NCBI RefSeq assembly: GCF_000014145.1
Contig: NC_008255.1
Location: forward strand, 1,427,501 to 1,491,500
Source of the DNA: Cytophaga hutchinsonii ATCC 33406
Lineage (GTDB): Bacteria > Bacteroidota > Bacteroidia > Cytophagales > Cytophagaceae
Reading direction: 5' to 3'
Length of the DNA: 64,000 bases
In this document: positions 35,059 to 51,091 of the stretch, in pieces
Layout of the letters: the number at the start of each line of letters is the position of its first letter
Numbering within the stretch: position 1 is the stretch's first letter
Notes under the pieces: model-generated
The model's database searches: none
What the model was told of the DNA's origin: nothing
What the model saw: only the letters and a program-made list of their open reading frames with translations
Translations under genes and position numbers: made by a program

Positions 35059-35270
35059 CAACAACTGTATTTGCAGTGCAGTGTATTATCCTATTTATAC
35101 GTAATATTTATTCATTTAATTGTATACTAATTGTATATATATTAAGTAGTTTTTATATATTAAAAACGGATGGGTTGTACGTAAATGTTTCATCTGTGGA
35201 TATATAGCTTATATAAACTATAAAACAATCTATATAATTATTGCAAGAATCTTCCATAATCATTTTGAAA

Positions 35271-35280
35271 TACTTAAGTA
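35271..35280. promoter_or_regulatory. palindrome TACTTAAGTA, site 1 (candidate operator)
   Basis: A perfect 10-bp palindrome 60 bases before the porin start and exactly 30 bases (about three helical turns) from site 2. Confidence 0.5.
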
Positions 35281-35300
35281 GTTTGATACTATTGTATAAA

Positions 35301-35310
35301 TACTTAAGTA
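35301..35310. promoter_or_regulatory. palindrome TACTTAAGTA, site 2 (candidate operator)
   Basis: Identical to site 1, and extended by one more symmetric base pair (ATACTTAAGTAT). It lies 30 bases before the porin ATG. A one-base variant lies upstream of ureD at 48414-48423. Confidence 0.5.
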
Positions 35311-35339
35311 TTCATGTTTAACATCAAACAACGAACAAA

Positions 35340-36707
35340 ATGATTAGTACATGTAAGTTTTTATCTACCATGGGGATATCGATGCTATTGACATCTGCAT
35401 CCTTTGCAAACGGTCCTCTAACGACAAATGAGGAAGATCCGATCAAAAAAAATGCAAAATCGAAGCAGGCCAAAAATGGTTCTGAGGTTTTTAAGACTAT
35501 GCAGAAAACGCCTAAAAATAAATACATACTCCGTGAAGTGCCAGGTTACTTTTTTGAAACAGGGACAGAAGCAACAGCACAAGCAGCTGCAGATACCACG
35601 CCATTCAAACCAAGTATTTCTGCCGGTGCGATCGTTCATATGATGGGTACGTATTCACAGGCAGGTTTTGGTCCGGGCACAAATTCAAGCGACCAATGGA
35701 ACAAAGGTTTCATGCTGTACAGAGCCAGGATCTTATTGGGCGGACAGTTATCTAAAAAGGGAAGTTTCTTTATGGAAACAGAAGTTCCTTCTGCAATCGG
35801 TACACGGATCGATTCAACAACAAAGAATGTAAAAGTATCGCCGATCATTTTAGATTGCCAGTACGAACATAAATTCAGCACGGCACTTACACTTATCGGT
35901 GGTATGCAGCTGGTTTCACATAACCGTAATGGTTTACAGGGCGCTGCCTCTTTACTGGCAAATGATTTTACCTTCTTCCAATACCCATATAACTTATTTG
36001 AGAACCAGCCGTTGCAAGGTAACTTCGGCCGTGATCTTGGGGTGAATGCCAGAGGTTATTTTTTAAATGAAAAACTGGAATACCGTATCGGGGTATTTAC
36101 CGGCCGTCGTGCAACAGATAATTCTCCATTGAGAACAGTTGGTCGTGTCGTATATAACTTTCTGGATGCAGATAAAAATTATTATTACTCAGGAACAAAT
36201 TTAGGAAACGGTAAAACAATTTCACTGGGTGCAGGTTTTGATGCGCAGGGTTCTTACTCGAATATCGGTGCGGATTTATTTGTAGACATGCCGGCTGGTA
36301 ACCCGGGTTCTGTTACGTTAAGCGCTGCATTCAGTTATATGACTGGTGGTACGAGCTTAACAGCAACAAACTCTTTTGCACGATTAATTCCGAAACAAAC
36401 AACACAATTACTTGAATTAGGATACTATTTCAAAGACATCAAATTACAGCCATATATCCGTTACGAAAATCAAAGCATCAACGCGGAAGATAATCAGGTT
36501 TTTGGAACTACAGATAAAAGTACGTTCAATAAATTAAATTCTTCTTCTGTATTTGGTGGTGGTTTGAACTACTTCTTTAATGGATACGGAACGAACTTAC
36601 GTTTATCTTATACTTCATTTACAAAAGGCGTGCTGAATACATCCGGAGAAGTTGATAAGAAATCATTCGGACAAATCTGGTTACAATTGCAATTCTTTAT
36701 TTTCTAA
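35340..36707 (+). CDS. outer-membrane porin-like protein at the head of the urea locus
   Basis: 455 residues. Seen: signal peptide about 1-24 (MISTCKFLSTMGISMLLTSASFA), a polar linker, then a beta-barrel-like pattern of alternating residues ending in the aromatic C-terminus LQLQFFIF, typical of outer-membrane barrels. Segments such as YRIGVFTGRRATDNSPL resemble phosphate-selective porin O/P-type proteins. It stands first in an apparent operon with a nickel permease and UrtA, 30 bp and 5 bp apart. Inference: it brings urea or short amides across the outer membrane. The family assignment is tentative. Confidence 0.75.
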   Translation: MISTCKFLSTMGISMLLTSASFANGPLTTNEEDPIKKNAKSKQAKNGSEVFKTMQKTPKNKYILREVPGYFFETGTEATAQAAADTTPFKPSISAGAIVHMMGTYSQAGFGPGTNSSDQWNKGFMLYRARILLGGQLSKKGSFFMETEVPSAIGTRIDSTTKNVKVSPIILDCQYEHKFSTALTLIGGMQLVSHNRNGLQGAASLLANDFTFFQYPYNLFENQPLQGNFGRDLGVNARGYFLNEKLEYRIGVFTGRRATDNSPLRTVGRVVYNFLDADKNYYYSGTNLGNGKTISLGAGFDAQGSYSNIGADLFVDMPAGNPGSVTLSAAFSYMTGGTSLTATNSFARLIPKQTTQLLELGYYFKDIKLQPYIRYENQSINAEDNQVFGTTDKSTFNKLNSSSVFGGGLNYFFNGYGTNLRLSYTSFTKGVLNTSGEVDKKSFGQIWLQLQFFIF

Positions 36708-36737
36708 TCATAGAAATTCAATTTAAACAAATTATAT

Positions 36738-37328
36738 ATGCTCACACCGATACTTATAGGTTTGTCCCACTCTGTTGAATCTGATCATGTAATTGCGGTA
36801 AGTAATCTGATCGATGTACGCCATGGCTTGCTGAAAGAAGCATTGCGAGGCGCATCATGGGGCCTTGGTCATACCGTATCTGTAATGGTTTCAGCATTTA
36901 TCTTATTGTTTATTAAAAACTCTGTAGAATTTTCTCCTGAATTTTCGCTGGAGTTACTGGTGGGAATTATGATGGTTGTTATTGGTGTGATACGCTTATT
37001 TGCCATCGCTGCTAAAAAACATATGCATCCTCACCGGGAAAATAAATATGTGTTTTTTAATGTAGGGATTATTCATGGCCTTGCAGGAAGCGGTACCATA
37101 GCTGTACTATTAACAAGCCAGTTTACTACCTTATACGAACAGACACAATTCCTTTTCTTATTTGGATTAGGCACAATCATCGGTATGGGAATTATTGCCG
37201 CGTTTTTTACACGGTTGAAATTTTTAAAACCTAAGTATTTGCTCGCATTCTCTTATATCATTGCTTCTGTGTCGGTGCTTTACGGCATAAAAATTATTTA
37301 CGAACAACTCTATACCTATATCAACTAA
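36738..37328 (+). CDS. UreH/HupE-type nickel permease
   Basis: 196 residues, an integral inner-membrane protein with about six helices. Seen: the nickel/cobalt transporter signature H-x4-DH in HSVESDHVIAVSN (helix 1), a second conserved set in RGASWGLGHTVSV, and a His-rich loop (KKHMHPHREN) near residue 100. Known: proteins of this type supply Ni2+ for urease and hydrogenase. Its place between the porin and UrtA, in a urease locus, fits nickel supply. 'UreH' here means the permease family, not the UreD homologue that shares that name. Confidence 0.85.
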   Translation: MLTPILIGLSHSVESDHVIAVSNLIDVRHGLLKEALRGASWGLGHTVSVMVSAFILLFIKNSVEFSPEFSLELLVGIMMVVIGVIRLFAIAAKKHMHPHRENKYVFFNVGIIHGLAGSGTIAVLLTSQFTTLYEQTQFLFLFGLGTIIGMGIIAAFFTRLKFLKPKYLLAFSYIIASVSVLYGIKIIYEQLYTYIN

Positions 37329-37333
37329 ATGTA

Positions 37334-38671
37334 ATGACTATGAAAACAGCACGATTAAACCTCATACAACTGTTCAAGTATGTATGCGTCTTACTGGCAG
37401 TAGGATTTTTATTAACAAGCTGCTCAGGCAGTGAAACAAAAACAGAAGGAGAAACTACTACTGACTCGACTAAATCAGAAGAAACAATTAAAGTAGGTAT
37501 TCTGCATTCGTTAAGCGGTACCATGGCTATTTCTGAAGTTTCATTAAAGGATGTTATTGAAATGGCGATCGAAGAGATCAATAATTCCGGCGGTGTATTA
37601 GGCAAAAAAGTAGAAGCCGTGATTGTTGATCCGGCTTCTGACTGGGATTTATTTGCAGAAAAATCCAAGGAATTGATTTTGGATAAAAAAGTTACTGCTG
37701 TATTCGGTTGCTGGACTTCTGTATCCAGAAAGTCTGTGCTTCCTGTGTTTGAAGAACATAATAATTTATTGTTTTATCCGGTACAGTATGAAGGCGAAGA
37801 ATGTTCCGCAAACGTTATCTATTCTGGTGCTACACCAAATCAGCAATTGATTCCGGCAGCAGAATATTTAATGAGCGAAAAAGGCGGCGGATATAAAAAA
37901 TTCTATCTGTTAGGTACGGATTATGTGTTTCCGAGAACAGCTAACAAAATTCTGAAAGCATTCTTATTATCGAAAGGTGTTCCAAAAGAAAATATCATTG
38001 AAGAATATACACCGTTCCACCACCAGGATTATCAGACAATTGTTTCTAAGATCAAGAAATTTGCTGCAGGCGGCAAAGCATGTGTATTGAGTACAGTAAA
38101 TGGTGACTCAAACGTTCCGTTCTACAAAGAATTCTCTAACCAGGGCTTAACTGCTGGTATCTGTCCGATCATGGCATTCTCTGTTGCTGAAGATGAACTG
38201 CGTTCTATGGATACAGAGTTTTTAGTGGGTCACTTAGCTGCATGGAATTATTACCAATCATTGGAGTCTCCTGAAAACAAAAAATTCGTTGCAGATTTCA
38301 AAGCATACTGTGCGAAAAAAGGATTGCCGGGCGGCGACAAACGTGTAACAGATGATCCGATCTGTTGGGCTTATACAGATGTTTATCTTTGGAAAAATGC
38401 GGTAGAAAAAGCAGGTACGACGGATATTGCAAAAATGCGTCCGGAATTATACGGACTTGAATTTTTATCACCAGGCGGCCCTGTAAAAATGAGCCCGATC
38501 AACCATCACCTTGAAAAGCCAGTATTGATCGGTGAGATCAGAAGCGATGGGCAGTTTGACATCATCTGGAAAAGTAACGGATTGGTATCTCCTGAACCAT
38601 GGTCTAAATTAACTTCGCCGAATAAGAGCTGTGATCATGTAAGCCACGGCGGTACATACAACCTTAAATAA
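37334..38671 (+). CDS. urtA: urea ABC transporter substrate-binding lipoprotein
   Basis: 445 residues. Binds urea or short amides in the periplasm and delivers them to UrtBC. Seen: lipoprotein signal with Cys30 (FLLTSCSGSE; Cys28 if ATG 37340 is used), and the family segments IKVGILHSLSGTMAISE, FGCWTSVSRKSVLPVFEEHNNLLFYPVQYEG and the C-terminal SPGGPVKMSPINHHLEKPVLIGEI, all characteristic of UrtA. Starts 5 bp after the nickel permease. It is followed by two hairpins rather than directly by urtB. Confidence 0.95.
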   Translation: MTMKTARLNLIQLFKYVCVLLAVGFLLTSCSGSETKTEGETTTDSTKSEETIKVGILHSLSGTMAISEVSLKDVIEMAIEEINNSGGVLGKKVEAVIVDPASDWDLFAEKSKELILDKKVTAVFGCWTSVSRKSVLPVFEEHNNLLFYPVQYEGEECSANVIYSGATPNQQLIPAAEYLMSEKGGGYKKFYLLGTDYVFPRTANKILKAFLLSKGVPKENIIEEYTPFHHQDYQTIVSKIKKFAAGGKACVLSTVNGDSNVPFYKEFSNQGLTAGICPIMAFSVAEDELRSMDTEFLVGHLAAWNYYQSLESPENKKFVADFKAYCAKKGLPGGDKRVTDDPICWAYTDVYLWKNAVEKAGTTDIAKMRPELYGLEFLSPGGPVKMSPINHHLEKPVLIGEIRSDGQFDIIWKSNGLVSPEPWSKLTSPNKSCDHVSHGGTYNLK

Positions 38672-38676
38672 TTCCC

Positions 38677-38714
38677 GCAGGGAAGAATAGCATTGAAAGG
38701 AATTTCTTCCCTGC
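38677..38714 (+). promoter_or_regulatory. hairpin 1 between urtA and urtB
   Basis: GCAGGGAAGAA at 38677 pairs with TTCTTCCCTGC at 38704. It lies just after the urtA stop. No T-run, so it may stabilise the urtA mRNA end rather than terminate. Confidence 0.65.
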
Positions 38715-38767
38715 CTGTTTAGCTGTCTTCATGATTAATAGTTTACAATAAGTTAAAAGGGTGATTA

Positions 38768-38820
38768 AGCTGGCTGTATGTTTGTGTGCAAGGAAACTGC
38801 AGCCAGCTCTTTTAACTTTT
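38768..38820 (+). terminator. hairpin 2 between urtA and urtB, terminator-like
   Basis: AGCTGGCTG pairs with CAGCCAGCT, followed by CTTTTAACTTTT. Possibly a partial terminator that lowers expression of urtBCDE relative to urtA. Confidence 0.6.
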
Positions 38821-38848
38821 ATTTCTCATTTACTTACCATGTAGTTCA

Positions 38849-40480
38849 ATGAAACATCTTCTATATATAACACTCTTGTTTTGGGGAAGTCTGGTTTCAG
38901 GATCTTCGTTACAAAAAGATTCTTTATCCTATTTTGTTCACGCGTCTATTTCCGGAAACGATTCAATAAAACAATTGTCTGTTAAACGTTTGGTAGAATC
39001 CGGTAATACCGATGTTTATCCGTTTCTGGCAGCTGTCTACGATAAAAAAATATATCTGTTCAAGGATCAGCCAGTAACAACAGGTGTCAGAACAACAGGA
39101 GAAGATGGTACAGATTTTTATGAAGTGTATACACTGTATCCGGTTAATGCTCCGGTAAAAGATGGTGCTGGTGTTATAATACTTCAGCCAATATCAAAAT
39201 TAAAAGAAGTTACGTTTGGCCGCAGCGAACGTTTATTGATCGGGCAGTTAGGCCCGTACTTAAATCTTTCAAGTGCTGACGCTGAAAAACGTAAGGCTGC
39301 CTACGGACAGTTTCAAGCCTTAAAAGATAAAGAAGCACTGCCGGCCTTATATGCAGCACGTGCAAAAGAAACATCTTCTGATGTTAAATCCATCGCTCAG
39401 GAGACTATTTTTTCCATTGAATTAAATGCATCTGCGGATGACAACAGAAAAAAAATATTGATTGACAGTCTCGTAATTAACTGGGGCTCCAATACAGAAT
39501 CAATCTTAGAAGCATATGAAGCTTCGGAAAAAAATCCGGAGTTAAAAGCATATGCCAAAGCTGCCATCGCTGATCTGAACGGAAAACACGAACGGTTGAG
39601 TGTTGTTCAGAATTTATTCAGCGGCTTAAGTTTAGGAAGTATCCTGATCATGGTTGCACTTGGTTTGTCCATCATCTATGGATTAGCGGGTATCATCAAT
39701 ATGGCGCACGGTGAATTCCTTATGATCGGGGCATACACTACATTTATTATTCAGAGTTTACTGCCCAAAGGTGATCTGTTCTTCTGGATCTCTTTGCCTG
39801 TTTCATTTCTGGTTGCAGGTGCCTTTGGGTTTATCATAGAACGGTTAATTATCCGGTATTTATATTCCCGTCCGCTGGAGAGTTTGCTCGCAACCTGGGG
39901 GGTAAGTCTTGTGCTCATCCAGTTTGCACGTACATTGTTTGGTGACCTTACCGCTGTACGCACACCTGCAGTACTGTCAGGCGGCTGGGAAATAACCTCT
40001 CATCTGGTTTTGCCATACAACCGGTTATTTATTATTGGCTTGTGCATCTTTATGATTGCCATTACTTATTATACATTATATAAAACGCGTTTGGGTTTAC
40101 GTGTACGTGCCGTGACACAAAACAGAAACATGAGTTCATGCCTTGGAATTGAAACAGGTAAAGTAGATGCCATTACATTCTTTCTCGGCTCAGGGCTTGC
40201 CGGTACAGCGGGCTGCGCCATGACACTGATCGGTAACGTTGTGCCGGATATGGGACAGACATATATCGTAGATTCGTTCCTGGTTGTCGTAACAGGTGGA
40301 GTAGGTAATATTGCCGGTACAATTGTATCGGGTTTCGGAATCGGTTTTATATTCAAAATACTCGAATCGTTCTTCGAAGCAGTGTACGGTAAAGTACTTA
40401 TTCTGGCCATCATTATTTTATTCTTGCAATTTAAACCTAAAGGTTTATTCCCTGACAAAGGCCGTATTGCTGAAGATTAA
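38849..40480 (+). CDS. urtB: urea ABC transporter permease UrtB with N-terminal extracytoplasmic domain
   Basis: 543 residues. Seen: signal-like N-terminus (MKHLLYITLLFWGSLVSGSS), a soluble region about 20-250 containing helical repeats (AAYGQFQALKDKEALPALYAARAKETS), then the branched-chain-type permease from about 255 (LSLGSILIMVALGLSIIYGLAGIINMAHGEFLMIGAY). Known: many UrtB proteins carry such an extension; its role is unclear. Forms the inner-membrane channel with UrtC. Confidence 0.93.
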   Translation: MKHLLYITLLFWGSLVSGSSLQKDSLSYFVHASISGNDSIKQLSVKRLVESGNTDVYPFLAAVYDKKIYLFKDQPVTTGVRTTGEDGTDFYEVYTLYPVNAPVKDGAGVIILQPISKLKEVTFGRSERLLIGQLGPYLNLSSADAEKRKAAYGQFQALKDKEALPALYAARAKETSSDVKSIAQETIFSIELNASADDNRKKILIDSLVINWGSNTESILEAYEASEKNPELKAYAKAAIADLNGKHERLSVVQNLFSGLSLGSILIMVALGLSIIYGLAGIINMAHGEFLMIGAYTTFIIQSLLPKGDLFFWISLPVSFLVAGAFGFIIERLIIRYLYSRPLESLLATWGVSLVLIQFARTLFGDLTAVRTPAVLSGGWEITSHLVLPYNRLFIIGLCIFMIAITYYTLYKTRLGLRVRAVTQNRNMSSCLGIETGKVDAITFFLGSGLAGTAGCAMTLIGNVVPDMGQTYIVDSFLVVVTGGVGNIAGTIVSGFGIGFIFKILESFFEAVYGKVLILAIIILFLQFKPKGLFPDKGRIAED

Positions 40481-40506
40481 TTATAACCTGTATCTGATCT
40501 GAGATT

Positions 40507-41598
40507 ATGAAAAAATATTTCAATAGTAATTCGTTGTTCTATATCATTCTTATCGGTGTGTTCTTAATTATTATGCCCATAGGAAATATGCTGGGTTTTG
40601 TTTCAAACAATACCATTTCGTTGTGGGGAAGATATTTTTGTTTTGCCATTGCTGCACTAGGTGTAGATCTGATCTGGGGTTATTCAGGTGTGTTGTCTAT
40701 GTGCCAGGCAGTTTTCTTCTGTCTGGGCGGTTATGCTATTGCCATGCACATGCTGCTGGTGGCAGGCGGAGAGGATCCTTCCGGAATCCCGGATTTCATG
40801 GTATGGAATCAGGTGGATGTATTGCCGGCCTTCTGGATACCTTTTCATTCCTTTGGTTTATCATTTCTTCTTGCGTTGCTGATTCCCGGAATCTTTGCAT
40901 TCATCTTTGGCTACTTCGTATTCAGAAGCCGCATCAAAGGGGTGTATCTGGCCATTATCACACAGGCGCTTGCGTTGGCTATGTGGTTGATTTTTCTCCG
41001 TAATGAAACCATGCTGGGCGGAACCAACGGCTTAACCGGGTTTAAAACATTGCTCGGTTTTTCGCTTTCCAGTCCATCAACCAAATTAGGTCTGTACATA
41101 GTATCCTTTCTGGTGATGTTCGGTTTATTTCTGTTCTGTAAATGGCTGGTAAACTCTAAGTTTGGTAAAGTACTGGTAGCGATCCGCGATAGTGAATCAC
41201 GGGTAAGTTATACGGCTTACAATGTTGTAAATTATAAGCTGGCCGTGTTTGTGATTGCAGCTGTGGTTGCGGCAATCGGAGGTATGCTGTATGTGCCGCA
41301 GACGGGTATTATCACGCCGGGCAGAATGGATGTAAAAGCATCTGTTGAAATGGTGATGTGGGTAGCATTGGGCGGAAGAGGAAGATTAAAAGGCGCAATC
41401 ATCGGAGCCTTGCTGGTGAATTATTTATACAGTGTCTGCACAAGTATGTTTCCGGAATCGTGGTTATACATATTAGGCGTGCTGTTTATACTCACGGTTC
41501 TTTTCTTTGAAAAAGGGTTCTGGGGATTAATTGAAATGCTCGAAAATAAAATCAATTCTTTATCATCAACTAAATCAGTTTCAAATACGAATTCTTAA
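40507..41598 (+). CDS. urtC: urea ABC transporter permease UrtC
   Basis: 363 residues, about ten membrane segments. Seen: RYFCFAIAALGVDLIWGYSGVLSMCQAVFFCLGGYA near the N-terminus and the permease EAA-like loop GKVLVAIRDSESRVSYTAYN near 225-245, both typical of UrtC/LivM. The gene lies 26 bp after urtB and 11 bp before urtD. Confidence 0.94.
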   Translation: MKKYFNSNSLFYIILIGVFLIIMPIGNMLGFVSNNTISLWGRYFCFAIAALGVDLIWGYSGVLSMCQAVFFCLGGYAIAMHMLLVAGGEDPSGIPDFMVWNQVDVLPAFWIPFHSFGLSFLLALLIPGIFAFIFGYFVFRSRIKGVYLAIITQALALAMWLIFLRNETMLGGTNGLTGFKTLLGFSLSSPSTKLGLYIVSFLVMFGLFLFCKWLVNSKFGKVLVAIRDSESRVSYTAYNVVNYKLAVFVIAAVVAAIGGMLYVPQTGIITPGRMDVKASVEMVMWVALGGRGRLKGAIIGALLVNYLYSVCTSMFPESWLYILGVLFILTVLFFEKGFWGLIEMLENKINSLSSTKSVSNTNS

Positions 41599-41609
41599 CC
41601 CGTACGATT

Positions 41610-42362
41610 ATGCTACTGAATGTAAAAAATCTTCATGTGTCTTTTGGAGGAGTAAAGGCGCTTAATCTTTCCGCCTTCAATATACAGCAAAACGAACTGC
41701 GTGTGATCATTGGCCCGAACGGTGCCGGTAAATCTACGTTCATGGATATCCTTTGCGGCAAAACAAAACCCAATGGCGGCGATGTTACTTTCAACGGAGA
41801 AGAGATATTAGGAAAAAAAGAAGTACGTATTGCGCAGATGGGTATAGGTCGTAAGTTTCAGAAGCCTTCTGTATTCCCAAGCTTATCGGTGTTTGATAAT
41901 ATGCTGCTTTCTGTGCGTATGCATAAAGGTTTGCTTACCTCTATGTTCTTTAAAATGAATACAGAAATAAAAGATCGCATAGAATCGGTAGCAGAAATGG
42001 TAGGCCTTGGCAAGCACCTGGAATTACTCGCGGGAAATTTATCACACGGACAAAAACAATGGCTGGAAATTGCGATCGTAATTCTGCAGGATCCCAAACT
42101 GATGCTGATTGATGAACCGGCAGCGGGTATGTCGGACGAAGAAACATACAAGACAGGAGAGCTGCTGACAAACCTTTCCAAAAAGCACAGTGTGATCGTT
42201 ATCGAACATGACATGGGTTTTGTGAAACAGATCGCACAGAATCTGGTTACCGTGCTTGTACGCGGGCAACTTTTAATGGAAGGCTCATTCGATCAGGTGC
42301 GCAACGATGAACGTGTGATTGATTCTTATTTGGGAAGAGCCAATACAGCACTGGAAAAATAA
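41610..42362 (+). CDS. urtD: urea ABC transporter ATP-binding protein UrtD
   Basis: 250 residues. Seen: Walker A GPNGAGKST at 35-43, the signature LSHGQKQWLEIA, Walker B LMLIDEPAAGMS, and the H-loop VIEHDM. The LivG-like length and the pairing with UrtE identify it as one of the two ATPases that power urea import. Confidence 0.94.
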   Translation: MLLNVKNLHVSFGGVKALNLSAFNIQQNELRVIIGPNGAGKSTFMDILCGKTKPNGGDVTFNGEEILGKKEVRIAQMGIGRKFQKPSVFPSLSVFDNMLLSVRMHKGLLTSMFFKMNTEIKDRIESVAEMVGLGKHLELLAGNLSHGQKQWLEIAIVILQDPKLMLIDEPAAGMSDEETYKTGELLTNLSKKHSVIVIEHDMGFVKQIAQNLVTVLVRGQLLMEGSFDQVRNDERVIDSYLGRANTALEK

Positions 42363-42419
42363 ATGATGAATAGCAGTATCATTCATCATTCATCATTTAT
42401 AATTCATAATTAAATACAC

Positions 42420-43133
42420 ATGAAAGATATTATACTTGAATCCAACGATCTACATGCTGCTTACGGACAGAGTATGATTTTATGGGGTTTAAATTTTAAA
42501 GCAGAAAAAGGTAAAGTAACAACCATTATGGGGCGCAATGGTGTTGGTAAAACAACTTTGTTGAAAACCATTATGAGTCTGGTGCAGGTATCTAAAGGTA
42601 CAATCACCTACAAAGGCGAAGAAATACAAACACTACCTTCTTTTAAAAAAGCAAACATGGGGATCGGTTATGTGCCGCAAGGGAGAGAGATCATTCCAAA
42701 ACTTACCGTGTATGAAAATATCAAACTAGGCATGGAAGCATTGGGAAGTAAGTCGAAAGCTAAAATTCCGGAAGATGAAATTTATGCCATGTTTCCGATC
42801 TTAAAAGATTTCAGGAAACGTCTGGGTGGCAACTTAAGCGGCGGGCAGCAGCAGCAGCTGGCAATTGCCCGGGTGCTTGTGAGTAATCCTTCGCTCATCT
42901 TATTAGACGAACCTACAGAAGGCATACAGCCATCCATTGCACAGGAGATCGGGCAGGTATTGAAAAACCTTGCAGCCGAAAAAGGAATTACCATTTTACT
43001 GGTAGAACAAAAAATTGATTTTGCAAAACAGATCACCGACTACTATTATTTTATGGACCGCGGCAGAATGTTAATGGAAGGAAGCAAAGATGAATTGGAT
43101 CTGGATGATATCCGGAAATATTTATCGGTGTAG
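42420..43133 (+). CDS. urtE: urea ABC transporter ATP-binding protein UrtE
   Basis: 237 residues. Seen: Walker A GRNGVGKTT at 38-46, signature LSGGQQQQLAIAR, Walker B LILLDEPTEGIQP, LivF-like length. It is separated from urtD by 57 bp containing short CATTCATCATT-type direct repeats. Confidence 0.94.
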   Translation: MKDIILESNDLHAAYGQSMILWGLNFKAEKGKVTTIMGRNGVGKTTLLKTIMSLVQVSKGTITYKGEEIQTLPSFKKANMGIGYVPQGREIIPKLTVYENIKLGMEALGSKSKAKIPEDEIYAMFPILKDFRKRLGGNLSGGQQQQLAIARVLVSNPSLILLDEPTEGIQPSIAQEIGQVLKNLAAEKGITILLVEQKIDFAKQITDYYYFMDRGRMLMEGSKDELDLDDIRKYLSV

Positions 43134-43139
43134 TCGCCA

Positions 43140-43224
43140 GCTACTAGCTGCTAGTTTCTAGACACTAGAACAAATACAATGCATAGTTATAATAACCAAT
43201 AATCCGGCACTAGCAACTAGTGCC
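43140..43224. repeat. CTAG-rich spacer with hairpin before ureAB
   Basis: Six CTAG tetramers occur within about 77 bp (43144, 43151, 43158, 43164, 43210, 43217). GGCACTAG at 43206 and CTAGTGCC at 43217 form a perfect 8-bp stem with loop CAA, 17 bases before the ureAB start, close to the ribosome-binding region. Confidence 0.7.
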
Positions 43225-43241
43225 CGGAAACTAAACAATAT

Positions 43242-43988
43242 ATGAGACTTGCACCGAAGGATATTGAAAAGTTAATGCTGCACAATGCCGGAGTTCTTGC
43301 ACAGAAAAGATATGCCAGAGGTATTCTGCTAAATTACCCGGAAACCATTGCACTTTTATCTGCACAGCTTTTAGAGTTTATCCGTGAAGGATACAGTGTT
43401 GCTGAGCTGATGGATCTTGGCATGAAGATTCTTGGCGTAGACGATGTAATGGATGGCGTTGCGCAGATGGTAGACGAAGTACAGATAGAAGGTACATTTC
43501 CGGATGGTACAAAACTCGTAACGGTCCATCATCCTGTCTGTAATCAAAACCTGTCAAATGGTTATGCCCTGTATGGTTCCGGATTAACAAAGTCAGCATC
43601 AAAACTGCTTATTGATAATACGATCAATCCAACACCAGGTGCAAAAGAATATGCCGCCGGTACGATCGAATTGAACGCAGGCAGAAAAACGAAAATACTT
43701 GATGTGATTAACTCCGGCGACAGGCCGGTACAGGTTGGTTCACATTATATTTTTTCAGAAACAAATGCGGCGCTGAAGTTTGACCGTGTCGGAGCAATCG
43801 GCTACCGACTTGATATACCGGCAGGCACAGCGGTACGCTTTGAACCGGGTGAGAAGAAAACGGTGCAGGTAGTTGAGATTGCCGGGCAGCAAATCGTATA
43901 CGGAGGAAATGGGTTGATCGATGGCGGTATCACAGAAGATGATATTCCGCAGATCAAGCAGCGCATGCAGGAAAAAGGATTTATTTAA
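43242..43988 (+). CDS. ureAB: urease gamma-beta fusion subunit
   Basis: 248 residues. Seen: the gamma part about 1-100 ([35 protein letters not shown]) joined to the beta part about 120-240 ([41 protein letters not shown]). Known: the same fusion is the small subunit (named UreA) of Helicobacter; most bacteria have separate UreA and UreB. It assembles with UreC, whose gene starts 12 bp downstream. Confidence 0.95.
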
Positions 43989-44000
43989 ACCATACACGTT

Positions 44001-45713
44001 ATGTCATATATACTATCAAGAAAAAGTTATGCAGACATGTTTGGCGTAACTACCGGAGATAAAATCACCTTAGGCGACACCAATCTTCTGGTGCGCGTTG
44101 AAAAGGATCTTACGGTGTATGGAGAAGAATGTAAATTCGGCGGCGGCAAGGTATTACGCGACGGCATGGGACAGGCTTCCGGCTATAAATCGGATGATGT
44201 ATTAGACTTACTTATTACCAATGCATTGATCATTGATTATACAGGTATTTATAAAGCTGACATCGGTATTAAGAACGGACACATTAAGGCAATCGGTAAA
44301 AGCGGCAATCCACATATCATGCCGGGTGTGCACCCGGATATGATTGCAGGAACGGTTACGGAAGTAATTGCAGGGGAAGGTATGATCATTACTGCAGGCG
44401 GGATTGATAATCACATCCATTACATCTGTCCGCAGCAGATGAACGAAGCGCTCGCTTCGGGTATTACAACCTTTATCGGCGGCGGCACCGGTCCTGCAAC
44501 AGGAACAAAAGCAACTACCTGTACACCCGGTGCCTTTCACATTGAAATGATGTTGAAAGCAACCGATAACATCCCGATGAATATTGGATTTCTTGGTAAA
44601 GGGAATACTTCCCATCCGGAAGAGATCGAAGAACAGATCAAAGCTGGCGCGCTTGGTTTAAAGCTTCATGAAGACTGGGGTACAACACCCGCTGCTATTG
44701 ATAACTGTTTGTCAGTAGCAGAAAAATACGACGTACAGGTGTGTATTCATACGGATACCTTAAACGAAAGTGGTTTTGTGGAATCCAGCCGCGCAGCATT
44801 CAAAGGCAGAACAATTCATACCTATCACACAGAGGGTGCAGGCGGCGGCCACGCGCCTGATATTATAGTGTTATGCGGAGATCCGGATGTACTGCCTTCT
44901 TCAACCAATCCGACAAAACCATTTACAGTAAATACCATTGATGAACACCTGGATATGCTGATGGTTTGTCACCATTTAGACCGGAACATTCCCGAAGATG
45001 TGTCCTTTGCGGAAAGCCGTATCCGTGGCGAGACAATTGCTGCTGAAGATATTCTGCATGATATGGGTGCCTTGTCAATGCTGTCGTCTGATTCACAGGC
45101 AATGGGCAGAGTAGGAGAAGTAATCTGCCGTACCTGGCAGACAGCACATAAAATGAAAGAGCAACGCGGTTTGCTGGAAGAAGATAAACAGATTGACGCG
45201 GATAACTTTCGTGTAAAAAGATATATTGCCAAGTATACGATCAACCCGGCGATCGCGCACGGCTGCAGTCATGTGATCGGTTCGGTTGAAGTAGGTAAGC
45301 TGGCAGACCTTGTTGTCTGGCAGCCGGATTTCTTCGGAAGCAGACCGGAATTGATTTTAAAAGGAGGCGTAATCGTACAGGCGCAGATGGGGGATCCCAA
45401 TGCATCCATACCAACGCCGCAGCCTTTCTTCTCAAGGCCTATGTTTGGTGCGATGGGTAAAGCAACAGGAGCAACCTCATTAGCATTTGTTTCGGCAGCG
45501 TCGGAAGAAACCGTAAACGGATATGGGCTGAATAAAAAAGTCACTCCGGTTGTGGGCTGCCGTTCTGTGAAGAAAAAAGACATGAAGCTGAATGATTTTC
45601 TTCCGGATATTAAAGTAGATGCAGAAACGTACAAAGTAACCGTCAACGGTGAATGGATCACCTGCGCACCGGCAAAGAAGCTGCCGCTGGCACAGCTTTA
45701 CAATTTGTTTTAA
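44001..45713 (+). CDS. ureC: urease alpha (catalytic) subunit
   Basis: 570 residues. Hydrolyses urea to ammonia and carbamate at a two-nickel centre. All active-site residues are present at a constant offset of +4 from the Klebsiella enzyme as I recall it: His138 and His140 (NHIHY), carbamylated Lys221 (LGLKLHED), His250 (CIHTD), His276 (YHTEG), catalytic His324 (VCHHLD) and Asp364 (SSDSQ). It should therefore be catalytically competent after nickel loading. Confidence 0.97.
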
Positions 45714-45721
45714 ATATGAAT

Positions 45722-45759
45722 CAGGCTGAAAGCCTCATATTTCATAGCTTGGGCCCAAG
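45722..45759 (+). repeat. partial copy of the urease-region repeat (between ureC and ureF)
   Basis: CAGGCTGAAAGCCT followed by CTTGGGCCCAAG, in the same order as the fuller copy at 47491-47535. The 188-bp ureC-ureF gap contains no ureE. Confidence 0.75.
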
Positions 45760-45901
45760 TAAAAGCAGATACGGAATTATCTGATCCTCGATAGAAGTCC
45801 AACGCCATTGTTGGTGTTCCGCAAGAACAACTCTTTGTGTAGTGAACAAAAGACAAAGCGGGTCACCAACAATCATTTAACAGTAAGTTAAACGAATACA
45901 C

Positions 45902-46603
45902 ATGATTTCATCCAAAGACAATACACATTTATTCCTGCTCCTTCAGATGGCGGACTCTGCGTTCCCTGTAGGAGGTTTTGCGTATTCATATGGATTGGAA
46001 TCGGCTGTGAAACATAATTTAATATCAGACGGAAAAGGTTTGCGCGAATATCTGTTGACGTTCTCTGAACAATTGATCGCATTTGACTTTCCGTTTATTG
46101 CTGCGGCACATCAGCAATCAATTACTTCTATAAATATAGCAGATTTGAAATCTTTGCTGCAGGTCTACAAATCGATGTTGCTGAACCCACCTTTGTCGAA
46201 GGCAGGATGCGTCATGGGCAGGAACTGGCTGAAGATCTGTAAACAGATTACAAACAGTTACCTGATGGATGAAACGGAAGAAGTATTTCGCAAAGAAAAT
46301 TTAACATTTGAATTTCCGATCGTTTTCGGATTAAGCATGCAGGCGTCAAATTTTACATTGTCACAAACCTTGTTCCTGTATTTCTACATGTCGATCCGCG
46401 ATCAGATCAGCGCGCTGATCCGTTTGGGATCTGCCGGCCCTTCTATGGCGCACACGGAACTGCAACAGGTTTTACATCTTTTCACCATTCGTATTGAATC
46501 TTATATTCCAGTACATTACTCCACTGCTTATAAATCAGCCTATCTGCTGGAGCTTGCACAACTCTCGCACGATCGGGTTTACTCTAAATTATTTCAAAAC
46601 TAA
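45902..46603 (+). CDS. ureF: urease accessory protein UreF
   Basis: 233 residues. Seen: the characteristic start LLLQMADSAFPVGGFAYSYGLESAV and RLGSAGPSMAHTELQQ in the C-terminal half, with an all-helical pattern. Known: UreF bridges UreD-bound urease and the GTPase UreG during nickel insertion. UreG follows 12 bp downstream. Confidence 0.94.
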   Translation: MISSKDNTHLFLLLQMADSAFPVGGFAYSYGLESAVKHNLISDGKGLREYLLTFSEQLIAFDFPFIAAAHQQSITSINIADLKSLLQVYKSMLLNPPLSKAGCVMGRNWLKICKQITNSYLMDETEEVFRKENLTFEFPIVFGLSMQASNFTLSQTLFLYFYMSIRDQISALIRLGSAGPSMAHTELQQVLHLFTIRIESYIPVHYSTAYKSAYLLELAQLSHDRVYSKLFQN

Positions 46604-46615
46604 AACGTTACTGTT

Positions 46616-47350
46616 ATGACCCTTTTAAAAATGTACCGCCATTTAGATCATTTCGATTCTCCAGGCCATTTTCATCACCGGGAATTGATTCATGAAAAAA
46701 GAAATTTTAAGAAACGTGCTTTTACCGTTGGTATCGGTGGACCAGTAGGGACCGGGAAGACAGCCTGGCTAATGCAGATCTGTAAAGCATTGCGCGATAA
46801 AATGAATATAGCTGTTGTTACCAATGATATCTTTACCAGCGAAGATGCCGAATTTCTGATCCGTAACGAAGCACTTTCAAAAGACCGTATCATTGGCGTT
46901 GAAACAGGAGGCTGTCCGCATGCAGCCATACGAGAAGATGTTTCACAAAACATGTATGCATTGGAAGAATTAATGAAACGCTTTCCCGATGTAGAATTAT
47001 TGTTTGTAGAAAGCGGAGGAGATAATTTAGCCGCACACTTTAGTAAAGAGCTGGTTGATTATTCAGTGTATGTGATTGATGTTTCAGGTGGAGACAAGAT
47101 TCCCCGTAAAGGAGGCCCGGGTATTACGCAGGCTGATTTATTGGTAATCAACAAAATTGACCTGGCACATTTAGTAAATGCAGACCTATCGGTCATGGAA
47201 CGCGATTCTAAAAAAATGCGCGGCGATGGACCTTTTTTATTTGCCCGTGCAAAAGACTGCTTCGGCATTGATGAGATTATCAATCATATATTAACTGCGA
47301 GAGAAAAAGCACTGGAAGCAAAGCCTGTGTATTCGTTACGGAAAGAGTAG
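46616..47350 (+). CDS. ureG: urease accessory GTPase UreG with His-rich N-terminus
   Basis: 244 residues, about 40 longer than the minimal enzyme. Seen: N-terminal extension with seven His in residues 9-26 ([18 protein letters not shown]); P-loop [10 protein letters not shown] at 41-50; [27 protein letters not shown] with the nickel-binding Cys-Pro-His; VVNKIDLA-type G4 motif (VINKIDLA). Known: UreG hydrolyses GTP to drive nickel delivery, and His-rich tails of UreE or plant UreG store nickel. Inference: this tail may take over the UreE role, since no ureE is visible. Confidence 0.95.
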
Positions 47351-47364
47351 TATAGTGCTGCTTT

Positions 47365-47535
47365 CTTGGGGCGATGCCCCAAGTTTTATTATCACAGGCT
47401 TTCAGCCTGAGTATAGCTGCTATAATTTAATAAGTATGTTATATTGTAGCAGCTGATTTTTTACATGGTACAGATTTTTATCTGATATCACAGGCTGAAA
47501 GCCTGACATATCAGAACTTGGGGCATCGCCCCAAG
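47365..47535. repeat. nested inverted-repeat element between convergent ureG and ureD
   Basis: Four hairpins in mirror order: CTTGGGGCGATGCCCCAAG (47365-47383), CAGGCTTTCAGCCTG (47395-47409), CAGGCTGAAAGCCTG (47491-47505), CTTGGGGCATCGCCCCAAG (47517-47535). The outer pair and inner pair are reverse complements of one another, so the whole unit is a 171-bp inverted repeat around about 81 bp of AT-rich DNA. It may also act as a bidirectional terminator. Confidence 0.85.
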
Positions 47536-47548
47536 AATTTCATGCAAA

Positions 47549-48406
47549 TTAATTCCTTCCTTCAAACGGATTAAAACCCAATAACTCTTTATCAGACATA
47601 TGTTCTGCCAGTGCTTTAACAAAGGGCTGCAGCAGATCATTGTTTTTTGCTGAACAACGGATCATAAATACCTGTTCGTTAACTTTTACCGCACTGCCTA
47701 TACGAATCAGTGATTCGGATTTATTTTCAATGTGCTCATGAAAATATTGTGCAGCTAAAAAACGCAGCTGTGTTTCAATGGATTTTACACGAGTCAGATT
47801 TTCATCGCCTGCTAAAAAGATATTGATGTATGAAGAGTGATCCAGAAAAGCTCCCGGTGAATTCATGTTGTTTTGTGACGGATCCATTTTAAAACGGTCC
47901 CATACAATCGGTACACCATTCGATTCTATTTTTAATTCTGTAAAGAAAGAGTCAAAAGCAAAACGCTCGCCATTCAGTATGCGTCCGGCTTCAAACCAAT
48001 CAATTACTAACAGTACCGCATTTTTTTCAAGTTTCCAGAAAAGATGCTGTTCGAATATGCTTTTTTGATGCGGCACTACCGGATCACCCATAAATACCAC
48101 GAGTGCGTTCTCGCCAACAGTACCGGTAATGGTTTGTTTGCATGTTTTTCCATGCTCCGACCGATAGATACGGGTATTCGCCTGGCTTGAAAAAGCAGAT
48201 ACGGTATCCGCTTTACAATCAATCGTAAGGTCAATCGAATCACCTTCCACAAAACCACCTCCATAATTTGAAAACACCAGGTGGCATGCTTTGTTTTTTT
48301 CAAGGGCGAAAATTTTCAACGGACGGAAAATCTTTGAACCAGTAACAGAACTTTTACCATGAATAGTTGAAATTTCAAGTATGGAATGCGTTGTATCTTT
48401 AACCAT
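47549..48406 (-). CDS. ureD: urease accessory protein UreD
   Basis: 285 residues. Seen: FSNYGGGFVEGDSIDLTIDCKADTVSAFSSQANTRIYRS, the UreD core with the conserved Gly-rich and TQ/QAxxKIYRS-like patterns, and GENALVVFMGDPVVPHQKSIF. Known: UreD (called UreH in Helicobacter) binds apo-urease and recruits UreF/UreG. It is encoded on the opposite strand, converging on ureG, with its promoter facing the two-component pair. Confidence 0.92.
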   Translation of the reverse strand: MVKDTTHSILEISTIHGKSSVTGSKIFRPLKIFALEKNKACHLVFSNYGGGFVEGDSIDLTIDCKADTVSAFSSQANTRIYRSEHGKTCKQTITGTVGENALVVFMGDPVVPHQKSIFEQHLFWKLEKNAVLLVIDWFEAGRILNGERFAFDSFFTELKIESNGVPIVWDRFKMDPSQNNMNSPGAFLDHSSYINIFLAGDENLTRVKSIETQLRFLAAQYFHEHIENKSESLIRIGSAVKVNEQVFMIRCSAKNNDLLQPFVKALAEHMSDKELLGFNPFEGRN

Positions 48407-48413
48407 AAAGTAA

Positions 48414-48423
48414 TACGTAAGTA
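48414..48423. promoter_or_regulatory. TACGTAAGTA, one-base variant of the urea-locus palindrome
   Basis: It lies 8 bases upstream of the ureD start and in the 87-bp divergent spacer before the sensor kinase. It differs at one position from TACTTAAGTA found twice before the porin gene. Confidence 0.4.
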
Positions 48424-48493: not shown

Positions 48494-50344
48494 ATGATAG
48501 CAGGACTACTTACGTTTATGAAGCTTTTTGAAAAAGAAATTGGTATAGTCGGGCAAGAGCAGAAGCTTTTTAAATACTCTGCTTATATGTATGCCATTGC
48601 ATTGTCTTTGATTGCAATGATTACCATATTAAGTCAGATCTTAATTCAACAATACTTAAGTAGCCAGGTTACGGATTCCCACGTCATTAATATTGCTGCG
48701 CGTCAGCGTACATACAGTCAGTCGCTAAGCAAAACCGCATTGCTGATCGAGTCCGGGAATGATATAGAAACCAATCGGAAAGAGTTTGCAAATACCTTAC
48801 GCCAATGGCAAAAGTCGCACGAAGCGCTCAAAGGCGGCGGCAGTGATTTTATGAACCTTCCGGCCAATGACCGGGATGAGTTAAAAGAAATGTTCGGCAT
48901 TATTGAAGAACCGTATGCCGCTATTTTAGGTGCTTCCAACGGCATGCTCAAGGAACTGTATAGCCCGAAAGCACTTGACTCCATGAATCTGAAAGCATAC
49001 ATAAGAACCATTCTTGAAAATGAACGCATGTATTTATTGGGCATGGAACTGATTGTATTTGATTACGATCGTTTTTACCGGAATGGGGTGAAGAAGTTAA
49101 AAGAAATTGAATATATTCTGTTATACATCGTGTTGGTAAGCTTGTTTCTGGAAGCCGTTTTTATTTTTTATCCGCTAGCCGTTCGTGTGAAACAAAACAT
49201 GAAGGATTTGGTAGAGTCGGAAACAAATGCCAAGAATCTGGCCACGCAGCTGCAGGAAGCGAACACGATACGAGAACAATCGCATAAAGAATTCCGGGAT
49301 ATAAATTATGCCCTTGAAAAGGCCACGTACGTTGTAAAGACCGATCAATACGGGCACATTATTTATGCCAACGATAAGTATTGCCACGTTACGCGCTACA
49401 ACATGGGTGAGCTGATCGGAAAGCCTTTGTTCTATAACAATATGGGCGGCAAGGAAAGTATCATCTACGAGCATATAAATAATCAGGAGCGTCGCAAAGA
49501 AGTATGGCAGGGAGAGATCTTTGATCATGCTTCCGATGGTACAGGCTTCTGGCTCGATGTTACCATGATGCCGATCATAGATAATAAAGGTTCGTTGTAT
49601 CAGTTTCTGGTTGTTTGCACAGATATTACAAAACGTAAAAATACAGAACGGGAGTTACTGCTGCTTACAGAAGAAAAAATAAAACGTCAGGGAGCAGAGC
49701 AAAAAATAATTTCATATTCTATCATTAACGGACAGGAAAAAGAACGCACCCGCATTGCTGCGGAAATTCACGATGGTATCGGACAAATGCTTACAAGTCT
49801 GCGTATGAAGATGGAGATGATCGAAAATAAAAATACACATCTGGGTAGTGATATAACCGAACTTACCGATCTGTTACAGATGGTCATTAATGAAACGAAA
49901 AAAATATGCTCAGATCTCTTGCCAAGTGTACTGGATGATTTTGGTTTGAGCGCAGCCATCCGCGAGTTACAGAAGATGTGCTCAGCAACAACTGAAATGT
50001 CCTTTGATCTGGATGATGAACTGGAACCGCATGCCTTACCGCGTGAAGTGGAAATAGGTATATTCCGTATTTTACAGGAAGGGCTAAATAATGCCATTAA
50101 ACATTCAAAAGGATCAAACGTTTTTATTCATATTAGTAATGACGAAAAAAATGTACATTTATTTGTGAAGGATAACGGGAAAGGATTTGATTTCGATGAA
50201 AAAAAATTATTAAGCCGAGAATTTATAGCAAAGTCTAACGGGTTGCGTAATATGAAAGAGCGTGCAGAATTATTAGGCGGTAAATTTGTAGTAAAATCGC
50301 TGATCGGAGAGGGCACAACACTTCAGGTACAGATACCTATTTAA
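48494..50344 (+). CDS. membrane sensor histidine kinase, NarX/LiaS-like (HisKA_3)
   Basis: 616 residues. Seen: membrane helix about 30-52; an extracytoplasmic helical domain about 55-205 with HVINIAARQRTYSQSLSKTALLIESG, like the type IV pilus/NarX-type (PilJ) sensor; second helix about 212-233; coiled coil; PAS domain about 275-400 (VVKTDQYGHIIYANDKYCHVTRY); HisKA_3 with His426 in RIAAEIHDGIGQML; HATPase about 525-616 (EGLNNAIKHS, DNGKGFDF). Divergent from ureD and followed by a cognate-type NarL response regulator. The NarX-like sensor suggests a small ligand; nitrogen status is plausible but unproven. Confidence 0.92.
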   Translation: MIAGLLTFMKLFEKEIGIVGQEQKLFKYSAYMYAIALSLIAMITILSQILIQQYLSSQVTDSHVINIAARQRTYSQSLSKTALLIESGNDIETNRKEFANTLRQWQKSHEALKGGGSDFMNLPANDRDELKEMFGIIEEPYAAILGASNGMLKELYSPKALDSMNLKAYIRTILENERMYLLGMELIVFDYDRFYRNGVKKLKEIEYILLYIVLVSLFLEAVFIFYPLAVRVKQNMKDLVESETNAKNLATQLQEANTIREQSHKEFRDINYALEKATYVVKTDQYGHIIYANDKYCHVTRYNMGELIGKPLFYNNMGGKESIIYEHINNQERRKEVWQGEIFDHASDGTGFWLDVTMMPIIDNKGSLYQFLVVCTDITKRKNTERELLLLTEEKIKRQGAEQKIISYSIINGQEKERTRIAAEIHDGIGQMLTSLRMKMEMIENKNTHLGSDITELTDLLQMVINETKKICSDLLPSVLDDFGLSAAIRELQKMCSATTEMSFDLDDELEPHALPREVEIGIFRILQEGLNNAIKHSKGSNVFIHISNDEKNVHLFVKDNGKGFDFDEKKLLSREFIAKSNGLRNMKERAELLGGKFVVKSLIGEGTTLQVQIPI

Positions 50345-50387
50345 ACTAACTAACTAACTAACTAACTAATTAATTAATTATTTTTTT
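50344..50387 (+). repeat. tetranucleotide repeat (AACT)6(AATT)3 + T-run between kinase and regulator
   Basis: Six perfect AACT units run straight into three AATT units and then A and T7. The tract begins at the last base of the kinase stop codon and ends 20 bases before the regulator ATG. Confidence 0.95.
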
Positions 50388-50407: not shown

Positions 50408-51091
50408 ATGTTGACTAAAAAGATTAAAGTTTTTATTGCTGATGATCATGAAATATTCAGAGATGGTGTACGGCAGCTGATCTCAAATGAATCGGACATG
50501 GAAGTTGTAGGTACCGCTTCTTCAGGTGAAGAGGCGTTGGAACTGCTTAAGGATAACCACGCCGATGTTGTTATCATGGATATCCGCATGTCAGGTATGA
50601 ATGGTTTGGAAACAAGCCGTGCTATTCTTAAGAACGACAGCAATACGCATATTCTCTTCTTCAGCTTATATGATCGGGATGATTATGTTGTGACCGCACT
50701 GGAAATGGGTGCAAGCGGCTACATACTAAAAGATACCAGTAATAAAATATTTCTGAAAGGCATTCGCGCCGTTTCAAACGGACAGTTTTATTTTACAGGT
50801 GATGTTACGGATGTATTGATAAAAAAATACAAGGAATTAAAAGACGTGAAGAATACGCCTGAAATATCATCAAGCTCTATTCAGTCTTCGTTATCTAAAA
50901 GAGAATATCAGATTTTAAATAGGATCCGCGAAGGGAAAACGAATAAAGAAATTGCGGAAGAATATAATTTAAGTGTGCGTACGGTTGAAACACACCGAAT
51001 GAATATTCTCCGGAAATTTAATGTCAGCAATTTTGATGAATTGATAAAAAATACCGATGAGGTATTGGGGACAGAAGGGAATGAAGAATAA
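50408..51091 (+). CDS. NarL/FixJ-family response regulator
   Basis: 227 residues. Seen: receiver domain with acidic pair Asp12-Asp13 (ADDHE), phospho-acceptor Asp58 (VVIMDIRMSG) and Lys in YILKDTS; LuxR-type helix-turn-helix about 157-215 (LSKREYQILNRIREGKTNKEIAEEYNLSVRTVETHRMNI). Known: this family binds inverted repeats, often of TAC...GTA type for NarL relatives. Partner of the kinase encoded 63 bp upstream. Confidence 0.95.
   Translation: MLTKKIKVFIADDHEIFRDGVRQLISNESDMEVVGTASSGEEALELLKDNHADVVIMDIRMSGMNGLETSRAILKNDSNTHILFFSLYDRDDYVVTALEMGASGYILKDTSNKIFLKGIRAVSNGQFYFTGDVTDVLIKKYKELKDVKNTPEISSSSIQSSLSKREYQILNRIREGKTNKEIAEEYNLSVRTVETHRMNILRKFNVSNFDELIKNTDEVLGTEGNEE

Follow-up and report, generated by a model that had tools for sequence, protein, structure and literature searches.

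A conserved palindromic word at the urea locus of Cytophaga hutchinsonii and its probable role as the operator of a two-component urea regulon

The urea uptake and urease locus of Cytophaga hutchinsonii ATCC 33406 carries a ten-base perfect palindrome, TACTTAAGTA, within a stretch of 64,000 nt (C1:1427501-1491500 of a single-contig genome of 4,433,218 bp), referred to here as the window. The general form of this word, TACnTAnGTA (TACNTANGTA), recurs, often in pairs, at the urt/ure promoters of other genera of the Bacteroidota that encode the same pair of PilJ/NIT-type sensor kinase and NarL-family response regulator. The word is well supported, by comparison across these loci, as the putative operator of a dedicated two-component urea regulon, and the adjacent regulator is very likely to be the protein that binds it. 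The reading as a whole, in which the kinase-driven regulator would act through TACnTAnGTA on the urea operon, most likely as a repressor, appears probable.

The operator word and its conservation

Two exact copies of the palindrome precede the first gene of the locus, which is porin-like, at 35271..35280 (site 1) and 35301..35310 (site 2), as the preliminary description of the window had noted. They are 30 bp apart from start to start, and lie 59 and 29 bases before the porin ATG at 35340. The one-base variant that was also described upstream of ureD, on the opposite strand, is TACGTAAGTA at 48414..48423, between ureD and the kinase gene and 7 bases from the start of ureD (48406, minus strand). 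A third exact copy, at 48653..48662, had been missed; it lies within the open reading frame (ORF) of the kinase, over codons Y54-L55-S56, and is found as TACTTAAGTA in all three of the Sporocytophaga-type kinases available and as TACCTAAGTA in G133. Among the three-codon windows with identical amino acids in the C. hutchinsonii kinase and two from Sporocytophaga, 9 of 273 are also identical in their codons, and the 48653 site is one of these, which is suggestive of a constraint at the DNA level, although its Tyr-Leu part is kept as protein in many kinases. This copy may be an intragenic operator or merely conserved coding sequence.

The exact word occurs three times in the window. In 100 dinucleotide shuffles the mean was 0.07 and no shuffle gave three copies, in keeping with the earlier estimate of well under one chance copy; the pattern TACKTAMGTA occurs four times (0.16 expected by shuffling). 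When one mismatch is allowed, the window shows no enrichment (5 versus 2.73, reached by 19/100 shuffles), and one-mismatch matching was rejected as a genome scan, being too noisy (123 places versus 449 for the backwards control). The whole genome contains four exact copies (14 for the pattern read backwards), three at the urea locus and one at C1:1164896, together with 73 places for the looser TACNTANGTA (control 231) and 11 for TACKTAMGTA (backwards control 60). These 11 places comprise four at the urea locus, one before narK, one before an operon that encodes a His-rich protein and a TonB-dependent receptor, and five elsewhere. As these last five lie inside ORFs, like the kinase copy, all five intergenic places (three at the urea locus, narK, and the His-rich/TonB operon) belong to the urea, nitrate or His-rich/TonB operon, so that the word is not the common one, unenriched near nitrogen genes, that would have spoken against the preliminary description. 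One ORF-internal place, at 2841772, falls so close to the start of its ORF (about 39 bp) that a wrongly assigned start would make it an upstream site.

The related genomes G130 and G187 have 9 and 11 TACKTAMGTA places, respectively, with four at the urea locus, one at the His-rich/TonB operon and one further intergenic place in each, and the rest in ORFs. Two genomes of the genus Cytophaga that lack the urea kinase, G015 and G076, have 8 and 14 places; G015 has one at narK and five in ORFs. All the places were inspected in C. hutchinsonii, G130 and G187, six of eight in G015, and narK alone in G076. The exact pair TACTTAAGTA-N15..30-TACTTAAGTA was found in one of the 395 genomes sampled from the class, C. 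hutchinsonii itself, at the porin promoter.

UrtA was detected in 24 of the 390 genomes of the order, and 12 stretches with close UrtA relatives were retrieved for comparison. In four genomes of the same family (Sporocytophaga-type), the porin gene is preceded by two copies of TACGTAAGTA, 31 bp apart, and TACTTAAGTA stands between ureD and the kinase gene, at the place that corresponds to 48414. A search with a kinase profile extended the set to 46 named loci from Sporocytophaga, Dyadobacter, Chitinophaga, Reichenbachiella, Flammeovirga, Wenyingzhuangia and others, and urt genes lie near the kinase in 45 of them; in the remaining one, the kinase is at the end of a 7.7-kb contig. At least one copy of TACNTANGTA is present in 32 of the 36 porin upstream regions of kinase-bearing Bacteroidota urea loci (0.49 expected by shuffling), and at least two copies in 28 (0.005 expected), often 30-35 bp apart. 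The 36 regions were drawn from 59 partly overlapping loci, in which a stretch without a porin gene could not be used; four close congeners (L015, L016, L023 and L024) were removed by hand, all of them with the motif, as were three repeats of other loci (L020, L025 and L026).

The same word emerges from a search for trinucleotide dyads that makes no prior choice of pattern. To allow for the relatedness of close species, the 34 regions were thinned to 22, and the top two dyads in these porin promoters were CGT-N2-GTA (16/22, 1.1 expected) and TAC-N4-GTA (18/22, 1.8 expected), which are two views of a single word, TACGTAnGTA. Across the 46 kinase loci, the motif occurs 105 times in the 45.6 kb upstream of the urea genes and 27 times in the 889 kb elsewhere, that is, at 2.3/kb upstream of porin, hupE, urtA, ureA, ureD or kinase genes, and at 0.03/kb elsewhere. 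In a set of 102 distinct 30-mers around the sites, in which the other letters were fixed by the choice of pattern, position 4 is T, G or C in 93%.

Twelve distant UrtA-like matches (46-52% identity, L072-L083), intended as controls without the kinase, were set aside and left uncounted, as they are apparently not urea loci; these stretches contain no match to urtB, urtC, urtD, ureA or ureC, with a porin-like match in three of them and a 27% ABC-ATPase match in L072. In Chitinophaga (L034, L057-L065), there are urt-kinase-regulator loci with no urease match in the stretch, the only part of these genomes searched for urea hydrolysis, and in L057-L065 the kinase match is shorter (a 466-aa ORF in L058, for example). 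Two further Chitinophaga loci (L039, C. rupis, and L041, Chitinophaga sp. GbtcB8) have nitrate assimilation genes (nasA, narK, nirD) 3' of the urea transporter-kinase-regulator cluster.

Sensor, regulator and promoter geometry

The presumed binder of the word is encoded at 50408..51091 on the plus strand. Its REC receiver domain (PF00072, E 2.4e-28) and GerE/LuxR-type helix-turn-helix (PF00196, E 3e-19) identify it as a response regulator of the NarL/FixJ type, and it matches the structures of NarL (1a04, E 2.2e-31) and VraR (5hev, E 1.7e-32). A NarL-family regulator had been placed next to ureD; the regulator is present, but the gene of a sensor kinase (48494..50344, plus strand), with a PilJ/NIT-type sensor and PAS, HisKA_3 and HATPase_c domains, lies between the two. 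Other genera with this kinase/regulator pair have the motif at the corresponding promoters, and in Flammeovirga it is still present even though the regulator gene has moved. One genome (G051, 98% complete) yields no match to the kinase profile at E<=1e-60; it has a porin-hupE-urtA-E-ureABCFG locus, but the motif is absent from the porin promoter.

The sensor domain of the kinase is of the type found in the nitrate/nitrite-sensing histidine kinases (NSHKs; PF13675, E 2.6e-9). A search of the PDB with this single sequence recovered neither NarX nor NarQ, while a profile of 27 sensors gave weak matches, to PilJ (7zjr, E 1.8e-5; 6gcv, E 0.0022) and to NarQ (5iji, E 0.039, over profile positions 15-60 only). 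The sensor is modeled as four helices, with a mean pLDDT of 76, and a Foldseek search with this model recovered nothing at E<=0.001, with NarQ (5jgp) in fifth place at E 0.046 and the NarQ entries mixed with other helical bundles. Nitrate sensors are described as sharing a G-x-x-R signature, with invariant G and R (PMC8199190). In an alignment of 26 urea-locus kinases (that of C. hutchinsonii and those of 25 of the 46 loci), R72 is present in all, while position 69 is A in 15 (including C. hutchinsonii), G in 7, T in 2 and S in 2; the glycine is thus replaced in 19 of 26, but kept in all five of the nitrate-type kinases examined. Given that most urea-locus kinases lack the defining glycine of the nitrate sensors, the ligand of the urea branch may differ from nitrate, and urea is an obvious candidate.

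The promoters of Bacteroidota are described as having TTTG near -33 and TAnnTTTG near -7 (PMC7366714). Before the porin gene, a candidate -33 element, TTTG, lies at 35264..35267 on the plus strand, separated by a 19-bp spacer from a candidate -7 element, TACTATTG, at 35287..35294 on the same strand, which scores 5/6 against TAnnTTTG, the two together reaching 9/10. This -7 element starts 16 bp after the start of site 1, as it does in the four Sporocytophaga-type genomes and G133. The core promoter was examined in 26 promoters with paired sites, with single-site or widely spaced loci left out. In all 16 of those outside the Chitinophaga type (C. hutchinsonii, four Sporocytophaga-type, G133 and ten Dyadobacter), the best -33/-7 pair lies at one place, with the -7 element starting 16 bp (six promoters) or 19 bp (ten promoters) from the start of site 1 and a spacer of 19-20 bp, so that site 1 fills the spacer and site 2 stands just past the -7 element, in C. 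hutchinsonii over the likely start site. The argument is carried by this constancy of place, as the scores alone are modest: the 16 promoters score 8-10 of 10, and shuffles reach 9 in 54/780 cases and 10 in 0/780.

NarL of Escherichia coli is a repressor at frdA, where its site lies at -4/+6, and an activator at napF, where it acts from about -40 to -49 (PMC4549865). As the urea sites overlap the core promoter, they would, by analogy with NarL at frdA, be somewhat more likely to be repressive than activating. Six narK promoters carry both GTA-[AT]4-TAC and TATATTTG, and their operator lies 29-31 bp upstream of the -7 center in five and 20 bp upstream in C. hutchinsonii, and these narK sites look, by the same analogy, activating.

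The nitrate and TonB operons and the competing readings

The genome encodes one other PilJ/NIT-type kinase (C1:1528463), which has its own regulator, lies beside narK and nitrate reductase genes, and is 32% identical to the urea-locus kinase. In 30 narK upstream regions, the top dyad is GTA-N4-TAC, as in TTGAGTATAATTACTCAA, which is found in 17 of 25 thinned regions (1.7 expected). The nitrate transporter promoters (L012:2100-2240; narK loci L089-L118) share an 18-bp palindrome around this dyad, a mirror of the urea operator. Of the 26 genomes with a PilJ/NIT-type kinase match, 20 have the form GTA-[AT]4-TAC at narK, as does one of the four without such a match, that one being 69% complete. 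The two sets of promoters differ accordingly in their preferences, with TAC-N4-GTA in 18 of 22 thinned urea promoters and 5 of 30 narK promoters, and GTA-N4-TAC in 5 of 22 and 21 of 30, respectively, that is, the same half-site in the opposite arrangement, with exceptions in both sets. Three Cytophaga genomes have both arrangements at narK, including TACGTAAGTA. The recognition helices of 43 urea-locus and four nitrate regulators are nearly alike.

The only copy of TACTTAAGTA outside the urea locus precedes an operon (L005:4033-6851; C1:1162032-1164850) that encodes a His-rich protein of 154 aa and a TonB-dependent receptor. Here, TACTTAAGTA is accompanied by TACGTAAGTT, 33 bp apart, and a motif pair 22-23 bp apart stands before this operon in all four Sporocytophaga-type genomes. 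Two genomes of the genus Cytophaga that lack UrtA, and whose sole kinase match is nitrate-type, have the operon without the motif. The proposal of a urea-regulon operator agrees with the recurrence of the word at urea promoters with the kinase/regulator pair, but the regulon seems wider than urea. A role of this operon in the handling of metals is about evenly balanced; urease needs nickel, and given that 19 of the 154 residues of the His-rich protein are histidines, nickel import for urease is our guess at its function.

In the proposed mechanism, TACnTAnGTA, mostly with T, G or C at position 4, would be the DNA site of the regulator at 50408-51091, driven by the PilJ/NIT-type kinase at 48494-50344. 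Dimers of the regulator would occupy the pair of sites before the porin gene, one filling the -33/-7 spacer and the other covering the start region, three helical turns away, and they would most likely repress porin-urtABCDE-ureABCFG until the periplasmic sensor domain switches the kinase. The copy between ureD and the kinase gene, and possibly that within the kinase, would serve the control of ureD and autoregulation, and further targets may include the His-rich/TonB operon, as a plausible nickel supply for urease, and perhaps narK.

The same regulator may, instead, bind these sites and activate the urea operon, for example under nitrogen limitation or in the presence of urea, which is a possible but distinctly less likely arrangement. 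Nitrogen-uptake operons next to a dedicated regulator are often activated, the two exact sites of Flammeovirga are 232-233 bp apart, an additional, third site lies farther upstream in the Dyadobacter loci and in L034, and five of the six narK promoters have their nitrate operators in an activating place; the overlap of both close sites with the core promoter in the 16 constant promoters nevertheless favors repression. Somewhat more doubtful is a joint nitrate/urea hierarchy, in which the two regulators would share all their sites through cross-talk, with no urea-specific operator. The similarity of the recognition helices, the TACGTAAGTA copies at narK, and the overlap of urea site 2 with a nitrate-type GTATAAATAC at 35294-35303 would fit such sharing, but not the opposite dyad preferences of the two promoter sets. 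That the word is read by another transcription factor, such as a general nitrogen or metal regulator encoded elsewhere, is improbable. The His-rich/TonB operon hints at a metal link, and the Cytophaga genomes without the urea kinase keep TACGTAAGTA at narK, where another regulator must therefore read it; the near-identical helix of the nitrate regulator could, however, explain that copy, and the presence of the motif goes with that of the kinase/regulator pair from genus to genus, including Flammeovirga, with its relocated regulator gene, and the motif is absent from the urea locus of G051 and the TonB operon of the kinase-less Cytophaga. The chance clustering of an A+T-rich palindrome, to which the lack of one-mismatch enrichment in the window might point, is rejected as extremely improbable, given the rarity of exact copies, the counts at the porin promoters, the dyads found without prior choice, and the placement of the motif, and it is contradicted by the conservation in distant genera.

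A number of observations weigh against repression of a urea regulon by the adjacent regulator. Direct binding and the control of expression are both inferred from sequence comparison, and G051, a single genome, is the sole urea locus without such a kinase among those compared. The motif is absent from four of the 36 porin regions (L044, L047, L069 and L070, all metagenome-assembled genomes), although L044 has TACTTAAGTA before the kinase instead, and two further promoters have it only at -235/-246. The ten Chitinophaga-type promoters do not fit the geometry, a score of 9/10 alone is reached by 7% of shuffles, and no convincing core promoter was found at ureD, where, as at the kinase and His-rich genes, the best scores are 6-8 of 10, not above shuffles. 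TACGTAAGTA is retained before narK in two genomes of the genus Cytophaga that lack the urea kinase, and the TACKTAMGTA totals of the kinase-less genomes (8, 14) are not clearly below those of the kinase-bearing ones (11, 9, 11). At the TonB operon, the motif is missing from G133 despite its kinase; the His-rich gene there follows another gene immediately. It is also missing at the distant TonB homologues (45% identity) in G118 and G077, in spite of their urea locus and kinase, and at that in G051 (45%).

A broader scheme can be offered only tentatively. The paralogous urea and nitrate systems would use the same TAC half-site and nearly the same helix in mirror arrangements (TAC-N4-GTA for urea, GTA-N4-TAC for nitrate), with geometry separating the pathways, one dimer form repressing within the core promoter and the other activating from upstream. 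In the urea branch, the glycine of the nitrate pocket would have given way to a pocket for a different signal, possibly urea, and the TonB receptor of the urea regulon would supply nickel for urease.

Locus layout and comparison with known systems

The locus runs on the plus strand from the porin-like gene (35340..36707; NCBIfam porin_ExtI, E 1.8e-21, under the family cut-off) through a small membrane protein (36738..37328), which had no match in the family search and which we take to be HupE/UreH-like, to urtA, the third gene, for the urea ABC transporter binding protein (37334..38671; TIGR03407). It continues with urtBCDE (38849..43133), of which urtB and urtC were identified by family match, and urtD and urtE are presumed from gene order and sequence, ureAB (fused gamma/beta) and ureC (43242..45713, family match), and ureF and ureG (45902..47350), presumably so from position and sequence, and retained in related loci. 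On the opposite strand lies ureD (47549..48406; PF01774), followed, again on the plus strand, by the kinase and regulator genes. The UrtB ORF (38849-40480) encodes 543 aa, and the UrtB model matches from residue 254 onward, which leaves an N-terminal extension of about 250 aa; many relatives have UrtB ORFs of similar length. Two near-palindromic elements of the form CTTGGGGC...GCCCCAAG lie between the convergent ureG and ureD (47360-47545) and may represent a bidirectional terminator or a dispersed repeat, and a short tandem run of TAAC-like units separates the kinase and regulator genes (50345-50372).

No urea regulator or operator of the Bacteroidota is described in the titles or abstract openings of the open-licence literature surveyed. 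The present analysis proposes a urea control switch for this phylum: a ten-bp word with its sensor and regulator, and a predicted regulon to which a putative metal-import operon belongs. The promoter geometry yields a prediction as to whether the urea operon is repressed or activated. The urea/nitrate pair also offers a natural system in which to study the separation of targets between related response regulators.

In the cyanobacteria, too, a TAC/GTA palindrome precedes a urea transporter operon: there, NtcA, a CRP-family protein, controls the urt genes through GTA-N8-TAC. Here, by contrast, the regulator is a REC-GerE protein and the word is TAC-N4-GTA, and there is no GTA-N8-TAC among the best 12 dyads of the urea promoters (gaps of 0-16 scanned).

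The NarX/NarQ-NarL/NarP systems of E. coli share with the urea system a PilJ/NIT-type sensor and HisKA_3 kinase, a REC-GerE regulator, and TAC/GTA half-sites, and NarL is described as both repressing at the start site and activating from upstream (PMC4549865). The urea kinase has a PAS domain instead of the HAMP and GAF-like domains of NarQ and NarX (architecture in PMC8199190), and the targets are urea uptake and urease. The NarL operator consists of inverted heptamers with 2 bp between them (7-2-7), with TAC-N10-GTA in an engineered site (PMC4549865), so that the earlier likening of the word to a NarL-type TAC...GTA repeat holds for the half-sites but not for the spacing, which is N4, and TAC-N10-GTA is not among the best 12 dyads. 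The architecture is shared by the narHK/narRR nitrate sensors of the Bacteroidetes, which lack HAMP and GAF-like domains and sometimes have PAS (PMC8199190). That account treats nitrate genes, and the word "urea" does not occur in its main text; the narK-adjacent paralogue (C1:1528463) appears to belong to the narHK/narRR kind, from which the urea-locus system differs in its divergent kinase and in the mirror arrangement of its operator.

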